A stretch of 20,290 bases of DNA, taken from assembly GCA_005888755.1 (NCBI GenBank), contig VBBQ01000021.1:458-20747 (forward strand), written 5' to 3'. Positions 6,049-20,290 of the stretch are shown here, one piece after another. The stretch is from Candidatus Bathyarchaeota archaeon. GTDB taxonomy: Archaea; Thermoproteota; Bathyarchaeia; 40CM-2-53-6. The translations under genes were made by a program, and so were the position numbers. The notes under the pieces are model-generated. The model saw only the letters and a program-made list of their open reading frames with translations, was not told the origin of the DNA and ran no database searches. Each line of letters begins with the position of its first letter. Position 1 is the first letter of the stretch.

Positions 6049-7464
6049 TCACAGCAGGCTGACTGTGACGGTCACCGTTGTCGAGTGCGACATTGTTCCA
6101 CTGGTGCCTGTGACAGTTACGGTGTAGGTTCCGGGTGTTGTTAGCAGCGAGGATGAGACGGTCATGGTTGACGAGCCTGTTCCGTTCGCACCGAGAGCTA
6201 CACTGGCTGGACTGAAAGACACTGTTGGCTTTACGAGGGAAAGCGATGCCGTTGTGTCGGATGGGGCGATTGTCCCTGAGAGGTTCACTGTACCAGCGAA
6301 GCTGTACAGACTGCTGAGGGTTATCGTCGCTGTCCCAGAAGATCCGACTGCAGCTGTCATGGCCGTTGGACTGGCGGATATGTTGAAGTCTGGCGGTGGA
6401 GATGTCACGATCAGGGAGAGGGTTAGAATCCGTACAATGCTCCCGCTCATCGCTTTGACGCTGACCTTGTAGCTTCCTGGCGATGTTGTCTGTGACGTTT
6501 TGACCGTAAGTGTTGAGGTTGCTGAACCTCCTGGGGCGAGTGAAACGCTAGTGGGGTTAAGTGACGTGGTCGTGGTGTTCTCTATGACTGGCGATGGACC
6601 TGACGCGAGCGCTACTGTACCTGAGAAGTTATCGAGGCTTTGTAACGTGATGGTTGATGTTGACGATGAGCCTTGTTGGACGCTCAGGCTTGGCGGGTTC
6701 GAGACCATGCTTATGTCGGGTGTTGTACCGTTCGATAGTCTCCACGCTGTCAGAGGGTGGAGTTCCCATGAGGAGTATCCGTGTCCCGAGCTTGAGGGTG
6801 GATGCCATGCTACGAATCCCTGAACATCGATCTTCTGGGTCGGATTGAGGCTGTCGAATGTGGAGTTGTTGCAGACTGTTCGCCTTATGCATATCTTCGG
6901 ATTGGGATTATCAAGTGTCTCGCAATTGCCCGTGTACTCCGTTGTGTCCTGGAAGACTCCGTACGCGTTGCAGAACGTTTGACCGCTAGGGTAGGGACCG
7001 CCACCGTTCGTAGACAAGTATTTTGTCCCGCATTTCCCGCCGACGGCCCCGTCTTCGACGATCGAGTTTGCTGTCAGTGAGATCCCGTGGATCTCGACGA
7101 ACGTCGGAGCCATTGTCCCGTTGACGTTGGGAGCCGTACACGGCGGATGAAGCGATGATTCGTCTGTAGTGTTGAGAACTCCAAATGGTCCGCCGCTTTC
7201 GAGGGCGCCCTGTGTTGACGAGTTGAAGTGGTTTCCTATTACTTGGTGGACGGTTGCTAGTGTCGCTTGACAGTTTACATTGGGGTTCCATGACGGGAGA
7301 TTGCCTGGAGTAATTGTGGTGGCGCTAGCTGAGTGTACGGCGAACAAGCCTGCAGAGACTGCAAGGGCTGCTAAGAGTACAGTAGCCACAATTGGTAGCG
7401 TCCTGGTTCGCTTTCCATGGACTTGAGTTGTGGGTTGCAGTGTTGTTACCACCTCTGTTTCCAA
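6049..7464 (-). CDS. Secreted protein: WELHP-motif domain plus two Ig-like repeats
   Basis: This 471-residue protein has an N-terminal hydrophobic segment after basic residues (KRTRTLPIVATVLLAALAVS, about 18-46), a signal peptide or anchor cut near SASA. A cysteine-containing domain of about 195 residues follows, with LPSWNPNVNC, FVEIHGISL, VEDG and IDVQGFVAW, ending at SSWELHPLTAWRL (231-243). Two homologous repeats of about 105-115 residues follow (248-353 and 357-471), each with PDxxxS, a GS-T-x-T-I-T-L strand, F-G-T-V and a terminal YxVxVxxxSG strand, resembling Ig-like or fibronectin-like repeats. The Ser/Thr/Asn content suits an extracellular glycoprotein. A frameshifted paralogue lies at 10217-11510. 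I do not recognise the WELHP domain. The start is TTG 7464; a GTG five codons in is also possible. Confidence 0.85.
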   Translation of the reverse strand: METEVVTTLQPTTQVHGKRTRTLPIVATVLLAALAVSAGLFAVHSASATTITPGNLPSWNPNVNCQATLATVHQVIGNHFNSSTQGALESGGPFGVLNTTDESSLHPPCTAPNVNGTMAPTFVEIHGISLTANSIVEDGAVGGKCGTKYLSTNGGGPYPSGQTFCNAYGVFQDTTEYTGNCETLDNPNPKICIRRTVCNNSTFDSLNPTQKIDVQGFVAWHPPSSSGHGYSSWELHPLTAWRLSNGTTPDISMVSNPPSLSVQQGSSSTSTITLQSLDNFSGTVALASGPSPVIENTTTTSLNPTSVSLAPGGSATSTLTVKTSQTTSPGSYKVSVKAMSGSIVRILTLSLIVTSPPPDFNISASPTAMTAAVGSSGTATITLSSLYSFAGTVNLSGTIAPSDTTASLSLVKPTVSFSPASVALGANGTGSSTMTVSSSLLTTPGTYTVTVTGTSGTMSHSTTVTVTVSLL

Positions 7465-7483
7465 AAGAAGAGAAGCGTCGGAA

Positions 7484-7546
7484 GTATTTGTCCAGTCGGT
7501 CTACAAGAGCCTAGAAGAGAACACAATGTGACACAGGTGACGACGC
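7484..7546. repeat. Promoter-like duplicated segment, copy A
   Basis: This segment lies just upstream (minus strand) of the WELHP-domain gene. It shares GTATTTGTCC, then an identical 18-nt block GTCTACAAGAGCCTAGAA, then AACACA and CAATGTGACA with copy B at 9924-10003. Copy A lacks about 18 nt between two CACA motifs that are both present in B. On the minus strand GGACAAATAC is a plausible TATA region about 20 nt from the TTG. Weaker similarity continues into the first codons (TGGTAA-AACA-TG). Confidence 0.65.
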
Positions 7547-7599
7547 AAGATTGGGGACCTCGGCGAGAGAAGAATTGGTCTCCGCGATGATTCTAAACT

Positions 7600-9819
7600 T
7601 CATGTGGCCCTGGAGAAAATCCCTGATTTTCCAGTCCAAGACAGGATAGAGGAAACCCTGGATTCTACCGGTAGAAACATAGCTTCTTGGCGAGAGACAA
7701 AACTCACAAGGCCTACGAACTGGAGTAGTTGAAGTCCTTGTATCGTAAAGTAGGGTTGAGAAGATGGCCTCAAGGTGGGACTTGTAATGTCAAGGGACAG
7801 AATAGTCTGATGATGTATTCCGCTTACAGTCGCATCAATAGTAATGATGTAGGAACCACTTGACATGGTGGGCGGTAGATTGATAATCAAACTTGCGGCT
7901 CCTGTTTCTCCAGTGGTCAAGAAAACTATTCGGGGAGTAACCTCAATTGTTGGACCGCGAGGAGAAATGCTAGCGTTCAGAGTAACAGTCCCAGAAAAAC
8001 CCTCAATGCCATTCGCGAACAGGGTAAGGGTTTGGCTTGAGCCGGCCAATAGGGGGAAGCCAATAGGGCTCAGAGAGATCTTGAAATCCTGTACGATCAC
8101 CGTTACGTTAGTGGAGTGAGATGACCCGTCGCTCCACCCATTGATTGTCAAGATGTAAGTGTTCGCAAATGAACTGTTGAATGAAAGAGTGGCGGTGGAG
8201 GTTTGTCCCGGTCCTACCGCGACACTTGTTGGGAAGAGAGTCACGTTAGAAACCGAGGGACTAGAAGCCACGGACAAGGCTACCTTGTCGTTGAAATTGT
8301 TCAGGCCTTCGATATCAATGTGAGAAACCGCGCGTTGTCCGGCTAGAACTGGTACAACCTTGGAATCAGCTGTCATCGTAAAATCTCGAACGATTACCCT
8401 CACGATCGTGGCACGCGAACCTTGGATGCCTCCCGAGCCCGTCAATACAACATCATAGACTCCGACTGGAGTCCCTCGAGGTATGATTATCGTGAGATAG
8501 GTAGTATTGCTACTTCCGGCGGTTACCTGCAGTCTGGTATTCGCAGGCACAGCGATCGGACCTGATGGGGTCGCGATAACCGCTAGGTTGGCAACTCCTG
8601 CGAAGCCTGTGCTGTTGATAGCGATTAGCGATGTCTTTGACGTTCCTGGGTAAATTCTGACGAGATCGGGGGTCGCGCTTATTGTGAGATTAAGGAGCGG
8701 GGGTGCGTTCTTGTATGATAATATGGTTCCCCAGCCAGGGCCGGTGGGGGATAATGACCCGTAGATTCCAGCTCCCGGCGTACTGGACCAGTCGGCCATT
8801 GGGAACCAGAGCCAGTTTAACCGCGATTGTAATGTGGTCGTTTGACTGTCGAGGAGACTTGTCATTGTTTGTATGAAGTGGAGGTTCGTTTTGCAGTAGC
8901 CCGATGACCCGTTTAGGATAACATCTGGACAGGTAGTCGTCGTTTCATTGGCTAGTCTTCCGAAAGGCCTTCCCGGTCCGCCTTCCGTGTTTAGAACCGG
9001 CCATCCTGTGCTCTGGGTCCCATTGAGCATGTCAAGGACCCATGTCCGAGCGTATGTCTCCGCGGTCGCGTTGGACCATTCAGAATAGTGATATTGGTAT
9101 TCGAAGTAGGCATGCAAACTGATGAACAGTCTCCCCGCTGGATCGTTTACAGTTGGATAGGCTTTCCAAGAGTCAGCGACCGGTAAACCGCAGCTGAGAC
9201 TGCAAAGGTTCTCGATGACTATCCAATGATCGTCTCCTAGGCTTCGAGCCTGATCTACCCACTGCTGGTACGCAGAATTAACAATCGATATGGAAGCAAA
9301 TGTTGCATTGGGCTCGTTGAGGGGTTCCCAGATTATTCTATCATATCTACCCGTGAATTGGTGTACGACAACGTCCCAGAAGCTGAGCCAGCATGAGGTA
9401 CTGCTACCGGTTTGCAGGTCATCGTACCCGTGGTAGTCTACTATGATCCAGAGCCCATAGTGCGCCGCTATCTCAATGGACCTGGACAACTGGCTTGCGT
9501 TATACGTTCCGAAGAATCCATTGCGATCGGTGCAATATGGGGCGAAGCTAGCCCTGTAACCGTTGAACCCTTTCTGAACGAGCATCCGGGCTTGCATCTC
9601 CATGTCACTTGCATTCTCACCTGGGAAGACCTCACCCGCTGGACTAGAGTGGCTAAATCTGCCACTCTCCAAAAGCCGGCTTCCACCCCACCCTGTCACG
9701 ATCGGAGGGGTCTGCATTGCATGCAATGCTGAGGCTTGGGTGAAGAGGAGTAAAAAGACAAGCAAACCTGTAGGCGCCACGATCTTTGCTGCAAGGCTCG
9801 ACCGCTGAGCGCGACCCAA
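7600..9819 (-). CDS. Secreted GH5-type glycoside hydrolase (cellulase-like) with three Ig-like repeats
   Basis: This 739-residue protein has a signal peptide (AAKIVAPTGLLVFLLLFTQA, cleavage near SALHA) and a (beta/alpha)8 glycosidase domain at about residues 36-375. WEPLNEPN (164-171) supplies the acid/base Glu169 in the Asn-Glu-Pro signature of clan GH-A. NTEGG (277-281) supplies the nucleophile candidate Glu279. DYHGYDD and SLHAYFEY (H236) match substrate-site positions of family GH5. The substrate is probably a beta-1,4-linked glucan or mannan, but specificity cannot be read. Three Ig-like repeats follow (about 378-475, 476-572, 573-680), related to those of the neighbouring secreted proteins. 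The last 50 residues carry only a weak hydrophobic stretch, so surface anchoring is doubtful. The start is TTG 9819 with AGGT just upstream. Confidence 0.9.
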   Translation of the reverse strand: MGRAQRSSLAAKIVAPTGLLVFLLLFTQASALHAMQTPPIVTGWGGSRLLESGRFSHSSPAGEVFPGENASDMEMQARMLVQKGFNGYRASFAPYCTDRNGFFGTYNASQLSRSIEIAAHYGLWIIVDYHGYDDLQTGSSTSCWLSFWDVVVHQFTGRYDRIIWEPLNEPNATFASISIVNSAYQQWVDQARSLGDDHWIVIENLCSLSCGLPVADSWKAYPTVNDPAGRLFISLHAYFEYQYHYSEWSNATAETYARTWVLDMLNGTQSTGWPVLNTEGGPGRPFGRLANETTTTCPDVILNGSSGYCKTNLHFIQTMTSLLDSQTTTLQSRLNWLWFPMADWSSTPGAGIYGSLSPTGPGWGTILSYKNAPPLLNLTISATPDLVRIYPGTSKTSLIAINSTGFAGVANLAVIATPSGPIAVPANTRLQVTAGSSNTTYLTIIIPRGTPVGVYDVVLTGSGGIQGSRATIVRVIVRDFTMTADSKVVPVLAGQRAVSHIDIEGLNNFNDKVALSVASSPSVSNVTLFPTSVAVGPGQTSTATLSFNSSFANTYILTINGWSDGSSHSTNVTVIVQDFKISLSPIGFPLLAGSSQTLTLFANGIEGFSGTVTLNASISPRGPTIEVTPRIVFLTTGETGAASLIINLPPTMSSGSYIITIDATVSGIHHQTILSLDITSPTLRPSSQPYFTIQGLQLLQFVGLVSFVSRQEAMFLPVESRVSSILSWTGKSGIFSRAT

Positions 9820-9823
9820 TTTA

Positions 9824-9837
9824 CCTAGCCTACTAGG
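9824..9837. promoter_or_regulatory. Inverted repeat at the GH5 start codon
   Basis: CCTAG-ccta-CTAGG has 5-bp arms and a 4-nt loop, ending 5 nt upstream of the TTG start (minus strand). It overlaps the possible ribosome-binding site AGGT, so it could form a leader hairpin or be an operator. Short and possibly chance. Confidence 0.3.
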
Positions 9838-10216
9838 CGAGAGGCGACCTTTCCGCAGGGCGGGACATAGGTATCCCTTCCACTGTTATTACCAACGCGC
9901 TTCTCCAGAATAAGCATACCGGGGTATTTGTCCGGCCCGTCTACAAGAGCCTAGAAAGTAACACAGTCGAAGTGATCGCACAATGTGACATAGCTGACCG
10001 CACGGGAGACTACGTGGAACGAGACAAGGAGCCGCTCGAGTAGAATCCAATGCCAAGGATCGCAGTCCTCTCATATCGTAGTGCAGGTTACTGGATTCGA
10101 CTCTTACGACTGAACTTAGGAGCTTGAACTTAGATTTGGCAAGTCTCGGCGTAGCATTGGAAGCTGTTTTGTGTTGGAGCTGCGGCAAGTTGGTGGAGTT
10201 CAAGATCGACCTCACG
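9838..10216. other. Intergenic region upstream of the GH5 gene
   Basis: This stretch of about 380 nt has no convincing gene. It contains copy B of the duplicated promoter-like segment. The rest (10004-10216) shows no recognisable RNA gene or coding pattern; a long minus-strand frame here has the composition of noncoding DNA. Confidence 0.6.
9924..10003. repeat. Promoter-like duplicated segment, copy B
   Basis: This is the second copy of the segment at 7484-7546, about 105 nt upstream of the GH5 start. The same GTATTTGTCC, 18-nt GTCTACAAGAGCCTAGAA, AACACA and CAATGTGACA blocks occur in the same order, with about 18 nt more between the last two. On the minus strand, GGACAAATAC is followed by ATGCTTATTCTGG, a 26-codon frame that ends before the GH5 gene and partly resembles the start region of the WELHP-domain gene. 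This suggests a duplicated gene head. Confidence 0.65.
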
Positions 10217-11510
10217 TCACAGGGTAACATTTACGATGACGGTCGCCTGATGTGATAGCGTCCCGCTGTTAGCATTGATGGTGACCGTGTAAGTTCCAGG
10301 TATCGCTAGGAGCGATGCGGAAACCGACAGCGTGGAAGTAGCTAGTCCATTTCGAGCAACGGTCACGGTAGCCGGATTGAGGGAGGCAGCAGGTTCAGCA
10401 GGGGAGAGAGATGCAGTTGTGTCTGCAGGCGCGACCGAAACAGCGAGGTTCACCGCTCCCGTGAAGTTGTATATGCTCTGAATCGTTATGGTGGCCGTTT
10501 GGGATGAGCCAGGCGTAAGAGTCAAGCTTGTTGGGTTGGCGGAGATGCTGAAGTCGGGAGGTGGCATCGTGATGGCGAGTGTCACGAGTAGGGTGTGGGT
10601 CACAGATCCGCTCGTCCCCTTGAGAATAACCGTCCAGAAGTTGTACACAGGCGCGGACGGGAATGCTTGGATTGTTAGTGTTGCAGTCGCAGATCCGCCC
10701 GAAGACAGTAGTATTCGCTATTTTAGCCGTGACGGAGGCTGAGAGTGTCACCGTCCCGTTGAAACGGTCGAGACTGTTTATTGTGACGGTTGCTGTTGAG
10801 GATGCGCCTTGCTGGACACTTAGCTTATTGAGGTTCATTGATAGCCCGAAGTCTGGCGTTGGGCTGCTGGAGAATCTCCAGGCTGAGATGGGATGAATTT
10901 CCCAGCCGCTGAAACTGTGCCATGAATTGTTGACGTGATCATTGTCCCAGTAAACAAAGCCCTGAATGTCAAAAAGCTGGTTGGTAACGGGCGGGTTCTG
11001 CGAGGCGATACCTGCCGATTTCCAGGCCTGGTCTATCTCCATGTGCATTTGGCAAAGATAGAGGTCCGGGCTGGCGCACTTTGGATCTTGGAAGTTGAAT
11101 GTTGTATCACAGAAGTTCCCATTGGGATATTGGGCACAGTCCTCGACGACGTAGGTTAGCGTGAGCATTTGAACACCATGGATTTCCACGAACGTTGCAT
11201 TTCCATTCACGGTGCACGGTGGGGAGGTAGACCTCTTGTCGGGTACGCCAGGTATGAAGCCCCCTCCTCCGTAGGCTGCCCCACCGTTTGCATTTCGCTG
11301 GCTACCGATTACCCCTTCAATGCTGGTTAGTATGGCGGTGCACCCAACGGCTGGGTTCCAGGACGGGAGCTGGCCGGGAGGGACAGTGGTAGCCTGGGCA
11401 ATGAACGGGCGCGCCGCTAACAAAGCTCCTAACCCGACTAGAACGACTAGCGCTATTGCGGTCGCGACTGATCCTGATCGTGTTCGTTGTGCGCGAGAAA
11501 CGGCTATCAT
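10217..11510 (-). pseudogene. Frameshifted paralogue of the WELHP-domain secreted protein
   Basis: The intact part from ATG 11510 (GGGAG ribosome site 6-10 nt upstream) encodes a signal peptide (IALVVLVGLGALLAARPFIA), then LPSWNPAVGC, FVEIHGVQM, VVEDC, FDIQGFVYW and SGWEIHPISAWRF, then the first Ig-like repeat. All parallel the protein at 6049-7464. After IANTT (about 10705-10712) the frame is lost. The repeat resumes in another frame as LLSSGGSATATLTIQ and continues through PPPDFSISANPTS to ...VIVNVTL, ending at 10217. Compared with the paralogue, about 10 codons are missing at the junction, with a net shift equivalent to roughly 32 nt deleted. It is a genuine inactivating deletion or an assembly error. 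The head follows the micro-operon by only 20 nt, so read-through transcription is likely. Confidence 0.8.
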
Positions 11511-11530
11511 TTCAACTCCCACAGGCGCAA

Positions 11531-16553: not shown

Positions 16554-18338
16554 ATGCCTGACTTCAAGCCTGGAAAAGTCGCACGGGTCGCAGGCCCCGT
16601 CATCGTCGCCGAAGGAATGCTCGGCGCCCAAATGTACGAAGTCGTCCGAGTAGGCGACCAAGGCCTCATCGGCGAGATCATCAAAATCGATGGAGAGAAT
16701 GCCACAGTCCAAGTCTACGAAGAAACTGCTGGCCTCCGTCCCGGCGAAAAAGTAGAACGCACAGGCAAACCACTTTCAGTTGAACTTGGACCCGGAATCC
16801 TAGGCCAGATCTACGACGGCATCCAACGCCCACTTACAGTTCTTTTCGAAAAGACTGGACCCTTCATCAAGAGAGGACTTGCCCCCTCCGCCATAGATCG
16901 ATCTAAGAAGTGGCACTTCGTTCCCACCGCGGACAGGGGAGTAGAGGTTTCTGGTGGCGATGTTCTAGGGACCGTCAAAGAGACAACTCTAATCACTCAA
17001 CGGATAATGGTTCCGCCCAACCAATCCGGAAGGATCACTTCGATCGTCCCGGAGGGCGACTATACGATCACCGAGCCGATCGGCGAGATGGAAACCAAGA
17101 CGGGACCCATCTCGTTGTTCATGATGCACACCTGGCCCGTACGAATCGCCAGGCCCTTCAAACGCAAACTCCCGTCCGAAATCCCACTCATAACCGGCCA
17201 GCGCATCATCGACTTCTTCTTCCCCGTGGCGAAAGGAGGAACAGCAGCAGTTCCCGGACCCTTCGGCAGTGGAAAAACGGTGCTCCAGCAAGCACTTGCG
17301 AAATTTGCCGACGCTCAAGTCATCGTCTACGTCGGCTGTGGCGAGAGAGGAAACGAGATGGCTGAAGTTCTCGAAACCTTTCCGACACTCCTTGACCCTC
17401 GCACTCAACAACCCCTCATGAATCGGACAACTCTAGTCGCGAACACTTCCAACATGCCGATTGCCGCCCGGGAAGCAAGCGTCTACACCGGCATCACAAT
17501 CGCAGAATACTTCCGCGATATGGGTTACGACACTGCGCTAATGGCTGATTCCACGAGCAGATGGGCCGAAGCCCTCAGAGAAATCTCCGGACGTTTAGAA
17601 GAGATGCCTGGTGAAGAAGGGTATCCAGCCTATCTCGCGTCTCGCCTCGCCGATTTCTACGAACGATCGGGCCGACTAGAGGTTCTAGGCTCGGAATCCA
17701 AACAAGGCTCTATCAGCGTAATCGGCGCTGTTTCGCCACCTGGCGGCGATTTTTCTGAACCGATTACTCAGAACACTCTTCGTATAGTCAAGGTTTTCTG
17801 GGCTCTTGATTCCGAGCTTGCCAAGCGACGCCACTTTCCAGCTATCAATTGGTTGACAAGTTACTCTCTCTACCTCGACACTCTCGAAACCTGGTATCCG
17901 AGGGAAGTCGGACCCGAATGGGTCGACTTGCGAAAAGTAGCAATGTATCTCCTCCAGCGAGACGAAGAGCTCCGCGAGATAGTCATGCTCGTCGGTCCCG
18001 ACGCCCTCTCCGAGGGACAACGGGTAATCCTGGAAGCTTCGAAAATGATCAAGGAAGACTTCCTCATGCAGCAATCCTACAATCCTGCTGATAGCTATTG
18101 TGACAAGACGAAAACCTACAACATGATCCGGATAATCCTCCACTACTACAACCTGATGCAGAAAGCAGTCGACGAAAACATTCCACTCCAGAAAGTTCTC
18201 GAACTGCCTGTCAAGAACGATATCAGCCGCATGAGACTCACTCCGGCGGACAAGTTCACAGACTACTCCCAGAATTTGAACGAGCGTCTGGATCAAGAAT
18301 TCAAGATGTTAACAGCACCGACTGCCAAGGCGAAATAG
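16554..18338 (+). CDS. atpA: A-type ATP synthase catalytic subunit A
   Basis: This 594-residue protein is the catalytic A subunit of the archaeal A1Ao ATP synthase (EC 7.1.2.2), full length for the family. It begins with the beta-barrel [15 protein letters not shown], contains the long A-specific non-homologous region, and has the P-loop GPFGSGKT (residues 235-242). [15 protein letters not shown] follows with the catalytic Glu region, then [18 protein letters not shown] and [11 protein letters not shown]. It works with subunit B, encoded directly downstream, in the A3B3 head. The P-loop is intact: it lacks the intein that often sits there in other archaeal and fungal A subunits. ATG 16554 is the natural start. 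Subunit genes E, C and F, often upstream of A, are not present here; the gene is first in its cluster. Confidence 0.97.
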
Positions 18339-18339
18339 G

Positions 18340-20290
18340 ATGGTCTCGCTCGCCGGTCTCGAATACCGAACGGTCCGAGAAATATCCGGACCCCTCATCT
18401 TCGTCGAACAAGTAAGAGGAGTAGGATATGGGGAGCTAGCAAGGATCAGGACCCCCAACGGCGAAGAAAGGAGAGGCCAGGTCCTAGAAGTCGGCGGAGG
18501 AGTCGCAGTCGTCCAGATCTTCGAAGGAACATCCGGGCTCGACGTTTCCGCAACAAGTGTCCGTTTCACCGGTGAAACCGTCAAACTTCCCGTCTCTCAG
18601 GACATGCTCGGCAGAATTTTCGACGGTAGCGGCAGGCCTACAGACGGCGGTCCAAGAATTATCCCTGATGATTATCTCGATGTAAACGGCAGTCCCATCA
18701 ACCCCTTCGCCAGGGAATATCCGAGAGAGTTCATCCAAACAGGCGTCTCTGCTATCGACGGGATGAACACGCTTGTCCGTGGACAGAAACTCCCTCTCTT
18801 CTCCGCGTCCGGGCTCCCTCACAACCAAATCGCTGCCCAGATTGCCCGTCAGGCCAAGGTCCGAGGCACGGACGAACCATTCACAACAGTCTTCGCGGCA
18901 ATGGGCATTACTGCCGACGAAGCCCGCTTCTTCAGAGACGATTTCGAGAAACAAGGCGCCTTCGACCACGTAACTATGTTCGTCAACCTCGCAGACGACC
19001 CTGCTATCGAACGAATTCTCACCCCGAGGCTCGCACTAACAGCCGCCGAATATTTCGCAGTCAAACTCGGAACCCACGTCCTCGTCATACTCACCGACAT
19101 GACCAACTATGCCGAAGCTCTCCGAGAAATCTCCGCAGCCCGAGAAGAAGTCCCTGGACGTCGAGGATACCCAGGCTACATGTATAGTGTTGATGGTAGC
19201 CGTAGAGTTGTTCTTCGAGATCCTGAGGGCTCTGTAAGAATCGTTGCTCTTAGCGAATTCTTCAATATGATTGAGGGTCCCATCCGGAACGACGGAGTCG
19301 TAGAAAGGAAAATCATCAATGGCTGGCACGCCCTCTCCACGACGACCGATGGTCGAAGCGGATTCCATCCGATCAGACATATCGTTCGGCATCCCTACAA
19401 GGGTCTGCTTACCCGCATCAAGACACAACTCGGAGAAACAATCGTAACTCCCAACCACAGCGTCTTCGGTGCAAAGGAGGGGCAACTCTCTGCCGTGGAA
19501 GCCGGGCAGCTTGGAGTTGGCGACTCACTCGCCCATGTGGCCAAAATCCCGGAGGACTGGGTTTCCAAGGAGACCGTTGAGATTCCAAGCGTCAAGACAC
19601 GGTTCCACCGAGAGATTGCCGTAACTCCTGAACTAGCTAGGTACCTTGGCTACTACGTTGCCGAGGGTCATTCCTCTCGGTGGTACGGTCGTAAGCACGG
19701 TATATGGCTGCACCAAGTTCTCATTACCAACAATTCGACCGAGTTCATCGATGATGTAGCAGACTGCTACACGAGCGTGTTTGGAAGAGCCCCGCCTACG
19801 ATTCACATTTGTGATAAGAGGTCGGGAACGTGGAGAGTGGGAACCCAACGAAAACACGTGTACGACTTTCTCAACGAATCGCTCGGATGTGGTCACCGCG
19901 CTTCTCACAAACGGATCCCTAGCGCCATTCTATCAGCCCCTAAGCCAATCCGGGGGGCGTTCTTCAAAGCATACTACGATGGAGATGGATTTTCGCAAGA
20001 CGCCCGCTACAAGACAAAGCAGTACTGCATGACCACGATAAGCCCGGGACTGCGTGATGATCTCATTTTCTTGTGTCGTACGCTCTACCCTGACCGGTCA
20101 CCCTCACTTACACCTGCAGTCGGAGGAAGAGCTCACCAAGTCTACCTCTCTACATACGTGAGAAGTCAGACGGCCTCTCTAAACGACACTGATTGTGTGA
20201 AAATCAAAGAGATCGAGCAAGTTGAACCAACAGAAGAATGGGTCTACGACATCGATGTGGAAGGATCGGACAACTTCGTAGATGCCTGCG
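18340..20290 (+). CDS. atpB: A-type ATP synthase subunit B with in-frame intein, partial
   Basis: The frame starts at ATG 18340, one base after the atpA stop, and is open to the window edge (650 codons). Residues 1-282 are the non-catalytic B subunit: [14 protein letters not shown] at the start, then [19 protein letters not shown] (degenerate P-loop) and [21 protein letters not shown], ending in [11 protein letters not shown]. At that point family members continue directly with SDLATIYERAG. Here a Ser283-led insertion follows with intein blocks; the C-terminal extein lies outside the window. After protein splicing the subunit should be normal, provided the intein is active. Pairing with atpA gives the alternating A3B3 ring. 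Codons before the insertion mostly end in C; after it, many end in T. Confidence 0.95.
19186..20290 (+). mobile_element. Intein with LAGLIDADG-type endonuclease in atpB, C-terminus cut by window edge
   Basis: The element starts with Ser283 (block [13 protein letters not shown]). Block B is [10 protein letters not shown] with Thr370 and His373. Block C, LGYYVAEG (436-443), and block [11 protein letters not shown] (541-550), are degenerate LAGLIDADG helices carrying the acidic residues Glu442 and Asp549. Block F is [16 protein letters not shown] (634-649). Block G (usually a short hydrophobic run ending in His-Asn) would come next but lies outside. The total length would be about 375 residues. 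The +1 extein residue is predicted to be Ser of SDLAT. Nucleophile Ser1 with Ser+1 is compatible with ordinary splicing. The endonuclease would target the intein-free atpB allele for homing. Confidence 0.92.

Follow-up and report, generated by a model that had tools for sequence, protein, structure and literature searches.

Results

The window, i.e. the whole stretch of 20,290 nucleotides analyzed here (positions 458-20747 of contig C18 of genome G000), ends inside the gene for the B subunit of an A-type ATP synthase. On its plus strand, atpA (16554-18338), encoding the catalytic A subunit, retains an intact P-loop and is uninterrupted by an intein. The open frame that follows (18340-20289) encodes the N-terminal 282 residues of the B subunit (N-extein, 18340-19185, plus strand; positions 1-276 of TIGR01041, E 1.9e-140 in a profile search) and then an intein splicing domain (PF14890, 44.6 bits, cut-off 35.8), together with a LAGLIDADG half-motif. 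The intein, also on the plus strand, starts with Ser1 at 19186, reaches the window end at 20290 and continues to C18:20776, equivalent to window position 20319. The frame runs past the window, with its stop 555 nt 3' of the intein; the C-extein (C18:20777 to C18:21331, plus strand) starts TDLSTIYERAGRLHGSKG and completes the B subunit in frame, TIGR01041 positions 276-457 being matched at C18:20777-21322 and both exteins belonging to one 853-aa frame. Joined, the two exteins (TIGR01041 1-276 plus 276-457) give an intact B subunit, as in class 1 inteins. Further upstream in the window, 6049-11522 on the minus strand encodes, as read by eye, a cluster of large secreted proteins in which Ig-like modules recur; one of them has an apparent glycoside-hydrolase-like N-terminal part.

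The sequence-only reading of this DNA had placed an intein in atpB and none in atpA, and both statements hold for G000: the PF14890 match, the splice blocks and the downstream C-extein are all present in the former, and the latter is uninterrupted. It had also set the insertion after GYPGYMY and before SDLAT, and expected, to the right of 20290, a block ending in HN followed by SDLATIYERAG. The site and the HN block were correct; the C-extein starts TDLS, not SDLA, and the junction (marked here and below by a slash) reads GLLLLHN/TDLSTIYERAG, so that neither of the elements whose absence had been proposed to refute the intein, the C-terminal splice block and the C-extein, is missing. The insertion point between GYPGYMY and TDLSTIYERAG corresponds to the point between the equivalents of residues 286 and 287 of the Methanosarcina mazei B chain (2rkw), where the surrounding stretch is nearly identical, in line with the strong conservation claimed for the site.

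Directly after the last base of the window, G000 has a run of 8 N, which masks the beginning of the C-terminal block. This run is the one feature that speaks for an assembly chimera or misassembled gene, an explanation that we consider practically negligible, since five independent genomes share this insertion down to the codon and four orthologues read through this position without a gap (DAC-GLLLLHN), which refutes it. Given these gap-free orthologues, the 8 N were most likely put in as a placeholder during scaffolding, which would set the actual intein length at about 375 aa.

All blocks of the intein lie on the plus strand: the Ser1 nucleophile block (19186-19218; read from the sequence and invariant in five orthologues), block B, TPNHSVF (TxxH; 19447-19467, aligned to known inteins and orthologues), block C, the first LAGLIDADG motif (19636-19668, acidic Glu at 19663-19665), block E, the second one (19960-19992, acidic Asp at 19984-19986; PF14528), and a further intein block at 20236-20280, placed by domain profile and solved-intein alignment. 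Both motifs, the first of which reads YLGYYVAEG, were aligned by phmmer to PI-PkoII (2cw7) and sit in the middle third of the intein; the alignment bears out the earlier view that each keeps an acidic residue. Ser, and not Cys, is likewise the nucleophile, as had been proposed, and it occupies intein position 1 in 5/5 carriers. Block B and block F are present along with the PF14890 match (57 bits in an orthologue), and the end of the intein reads LLLLHN/T in G000 and its orthologues, i.e. His-Asn followed by Thr+1. The closest solved inteins are PI-PkoII (E 5e-22) and the TFIIB intein (E 1e-12); a structure predicted from four close orthologues had a pLDDT of 31.6. Taken together, the class 1 features (Ser1, TPNH, VYD...F, terminal His-Asn and Thr+1) and the motifs identify the atpB insert, with a high degree of confidence, as a large class 1 intein with a nested LAGLIDADG homing endonuclease, for which splicing and homing are predicted.

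A class-wide search covered 256 genomes, 102 of which had a B subunit match. The GYMY/T intein was found in five of them, all from one genus, and was not seen outside that genus among the 256. Besides G000, full-length 376-aa orthologues, 88-90% identical, are present in four sister species, G005, G013, G015 and G017, three of these four being identified as soil Bathyarchaeota/Crenarchaeota MAGs. Eight genomes of the same genus (G001, G002, G003, G006, G007, G008, G010 and G016) carry an uninterrupted site that reads exactly GYMY-TDL. The A-subunit P-loop intein of the classic type was detected in G003, G005, G013, G017, G018 and G250, so that three of the five carriers (G005, G013 and G017) have inteins in both subunits, with the B intein alone in G000 and G015. 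In a 398-genome phylum sample, the only other clear B-subunit inteins were those of G169, G250 and G416, at TDMTNY/C...N/CEALRE. The notion of an intein in the B rather than the A subunit is thus right for G000 and fails as a rule, given the A-subunit inteins of sister carriers and this second B-subunit site.

The TDMTNY/C inteins (L095, L096 and L097) belong to three distant Thermoproteota, and G250 has an A-subunit intein as well. A 724-aa B frame in G557 was rejected as a carrier, as it merely has an open upstream frame and an intact GYLY-SDLA. Three draft contigs (L062 in G009:C97, L074 in G341:C55 and L070 in G430:C174) stop at one of the two B-subunit intein sites or no more than two codons from it, as though the assembly had been interrupted by a mixture of alleles with and without the intein. 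In G003 atpA (L101), the A-subunit extein is some 50 residues shorter past the P-loop (AKWAD-SNMPIAA), either by an in-frame deletion or by an assembly error.

G000 itself is an intein-rich 2 Mb genome. Contig C18 has a second intein in thyX (L010:7828-9627, i.e. G000:C18:26828-28627; FSQQ/CYDPET...WCGN/SQRY), and others lie in a PHP-domain protein, endonuclease IV, Hel308 (two), MCM, the Cdc48/VCP P-loop, the Lhr helicase, PolB and a 2-oxoacid:ferredoxin oxidoreductase subunit (loci L011-L017 and L131; contigs 37, 3, 30, 1, 25, 17, 32 and 11). A long EF-2 frame in G000 would fit a P-loop intein, as in sister genomes.

The intein copies contain no stops, and their dN/dS lies at 0.06-0.13 for the splicing part and at 0.06-0.10 for the endonuclease part, compared with 0.003-0.03 in the exteins. 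Purifying selection thus acts on both parts. Both acidic residues are kept in four of the five carriers; in the sister genome G017 the catalytic Asp of the second motif is replaced by Ser (DGSG). The intein and extein dS values are similar, or the former slightly lower, from which it follows that any transfer is old. A contrast in T-ending codons had been taken as a hint of a separate origin of the intein; it amounts to 24% in the intein versus 15% in both exteins of G000 and is too weak to indicate a foreign source, since the C-exteins of relatives reach 20-28%. Phylogenetic tests gave different degrees of support: with 60 nt about the junction left out, the atpB flanks reject a single carrier clade (p-AU 0.0023), while the concatenated atpA and atpB tree opposes a single clade only weakly (p-AU 0.09).

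We compared the junctions of the five carriers with those of four close empty alleles; the pattern described here was found post hoc. Only 5 of 1380 columns separate carriers from empties among these nine alleles, four of them at -10, +9, +10 and +11, and no alternative 5/4 split of the same alleles gives such clustering at the junction. The serine at +10 is encoded by TCN with the intein and by AGT without it in 9/9 alleles, within 11 nt of the insertion point and against the gene tree. The Leu-Ser pair at +7 to +12 is CTY-TCN in carriers, whereas each of the four closest empties has YTG-AGT; CTY is also the outgroup state at +9, which places the change there on the empty side. The Ser codons at -654 and +10 occur in all four combinations, and so recombination (or repeated double changes) has uncoupled the junction from the remainder of atpB. 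Beside the A-subunit site GK/T, the serine at -9 of atpA has an AGY codon where the intein is present and TCC in five of the six alleles lacking it; it tracks the intein in 8/9 alleles, the exception being G000, which is empty with AGT. Among 45 conserved serines of atpA and atpB, only four mix TCN and AGY, and two of these adjoin the two intein sites. For the EF-2 intein site, a candidate third case for a junction haplotype, there is a single close empty allele.

Discussion

The anatomy described above is that of an ordinary type of mobile element in an unusual place, a well-supported conclusion in which splicing and homing activity are deduced from sequence. The atpB precursor would be translated whole, intein included; Ser1 would perform the N-O acyl shift, Thr+1 of the C-extein would take over the N-extein, and cyclization of the Asn would free the intein, the expected product being an intact 466-aa B subunit. 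By F1 homology, the insertion point presumably lies just after the loop facing the rotor, for which reason splicing should precede assembly. The endonuclease, in turn, would recognize the conserved DNA spanning the empty site of related alleles, and repair would install the intein, carrying a short flank along; some lineages already show the onset of loss and decay. The retained acidic residues, purifying selection, the patchy distribution and the junction-linked haplotype argue for this homing proposal.

Alternatively, the intein could have been inherited vertically from the ancestor of the subclade and lost repeatedly, surviving as a decayed or splicing-only element whose endonuclease no longer cuts. 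Its confinement to one genus, the comparable dS of intein and exteins, the missing second catalytic Asp in G017 and the single clade left unrejected by the concatenated tree are compatible with this scenario. Nevertheless, purifying selection acts on the endonuclease as it does on the splicing part, both acidic residues persist in 4/5 carriers, one clade is rejected by atpB alone, and the intein-linked haplotype is limited to the junction, so that we regard vertical inheritance as possible and the less probable history. A quite improbable explanation is that B-subunit splicing responds to stress and regulates ATP synthase assembly. Conditional splicing has been described for other inteins, e.g. 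those of RadA and SufB (PMC5874633), and it would suit both the strength of the purifying selection and the essential nature of the host protein; against it, eight genomes of the same genus manage without the intein, and the splice junctions have no cysteine, the usual redox handle.

Within the homing proposal, the codon switch at the junction suggests either short co-conversion during homing or homing-resistant targets. That intein-free alleles persist because synonymous changes made their homing site resistant is a speculative idea, to which we give a rather low probability.

Several inteins resemble the atpB intein. The VMA-b inteins, at the A-subunit P-loop (GK/T) of Thermococcales, Thermoplasma and others, are also class 1 elements with LAGLIDADG motifs and Thr+1 in the A-type ATPase operon, and that of Pyrococcus horikoshii, with 376 aa, is close in size (PMC8966425). 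They differ in subunit, site and nucleophile (Cys1 instead of Ser1), form a separate, well supported clade, and match the atpB intein merely at E 1e-4 to 5e-5 (TliVMA/PhoVMA); moreover, the A-subunit GK/T site is uninterrupted in G000. The TDMTNY/C inteins share the host protein, class 1 and an endonuclease, whereas they lie about 26 residues upstream of GYMY/T, use Cys1/Cys+1, measure 528-555 aa and form their own clade; the G000 insertion is at GYMY/T with Ser1. The best match outside the atpB group is to MCM inteins (SGRGT/S...HN/TAAG; 31% over 218 aa, E 8e-24), which share the Ser1/Thr+1 chemistry but differ in host and site, with no supported sister relation. In the intein tree, the atpB inteins cluster as a distinct clade on a long stem, apart from A-subunit and other B-subunit inteins; the deeper nodes of this tree are unreliable owing to long branches.

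B-subunit inteins as such are not unique, given those at TDMTNY/C; Methanopyrus kandleri AtpB/VatB is a further candidate for an archaeal B-subunit intein (InBase/UniProt). Among family models, NCBIfam NF011287 (PRK14698) is an A-subunit model of 1017 positions, the extra length of which is taken to be an intein, while the best-matching B-subunit models have lengths that leave no room for one. Searches of the open-access literature yielded no paper on a B-subunit intein, and the Soucy 2014 intein listing has no ATPase allele. A Halorubrum "atpB" paper was rejected as a report of a B intein, atpB being there an MLSA marker and not an intein host. For GYMY/T, no record as an insertion site was found in the open-access sources covered here.

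With the atpB intein, the non-catalytic subunit of a rotary ATPase gains an insertion site, and in one archaeal genus inteins have invaded the A/B operon at two independent positions, either one at a time or both in the same genome. With carriers, empty alleles and a decaying copy, this single genus offers natural alleles for testing the homing cycle and possible target-site resistance. If such resistance proves true, the serine codon-family switches would be a visible sign that homing endonucleases and ATP-synthase genes are engaged in an arms race.
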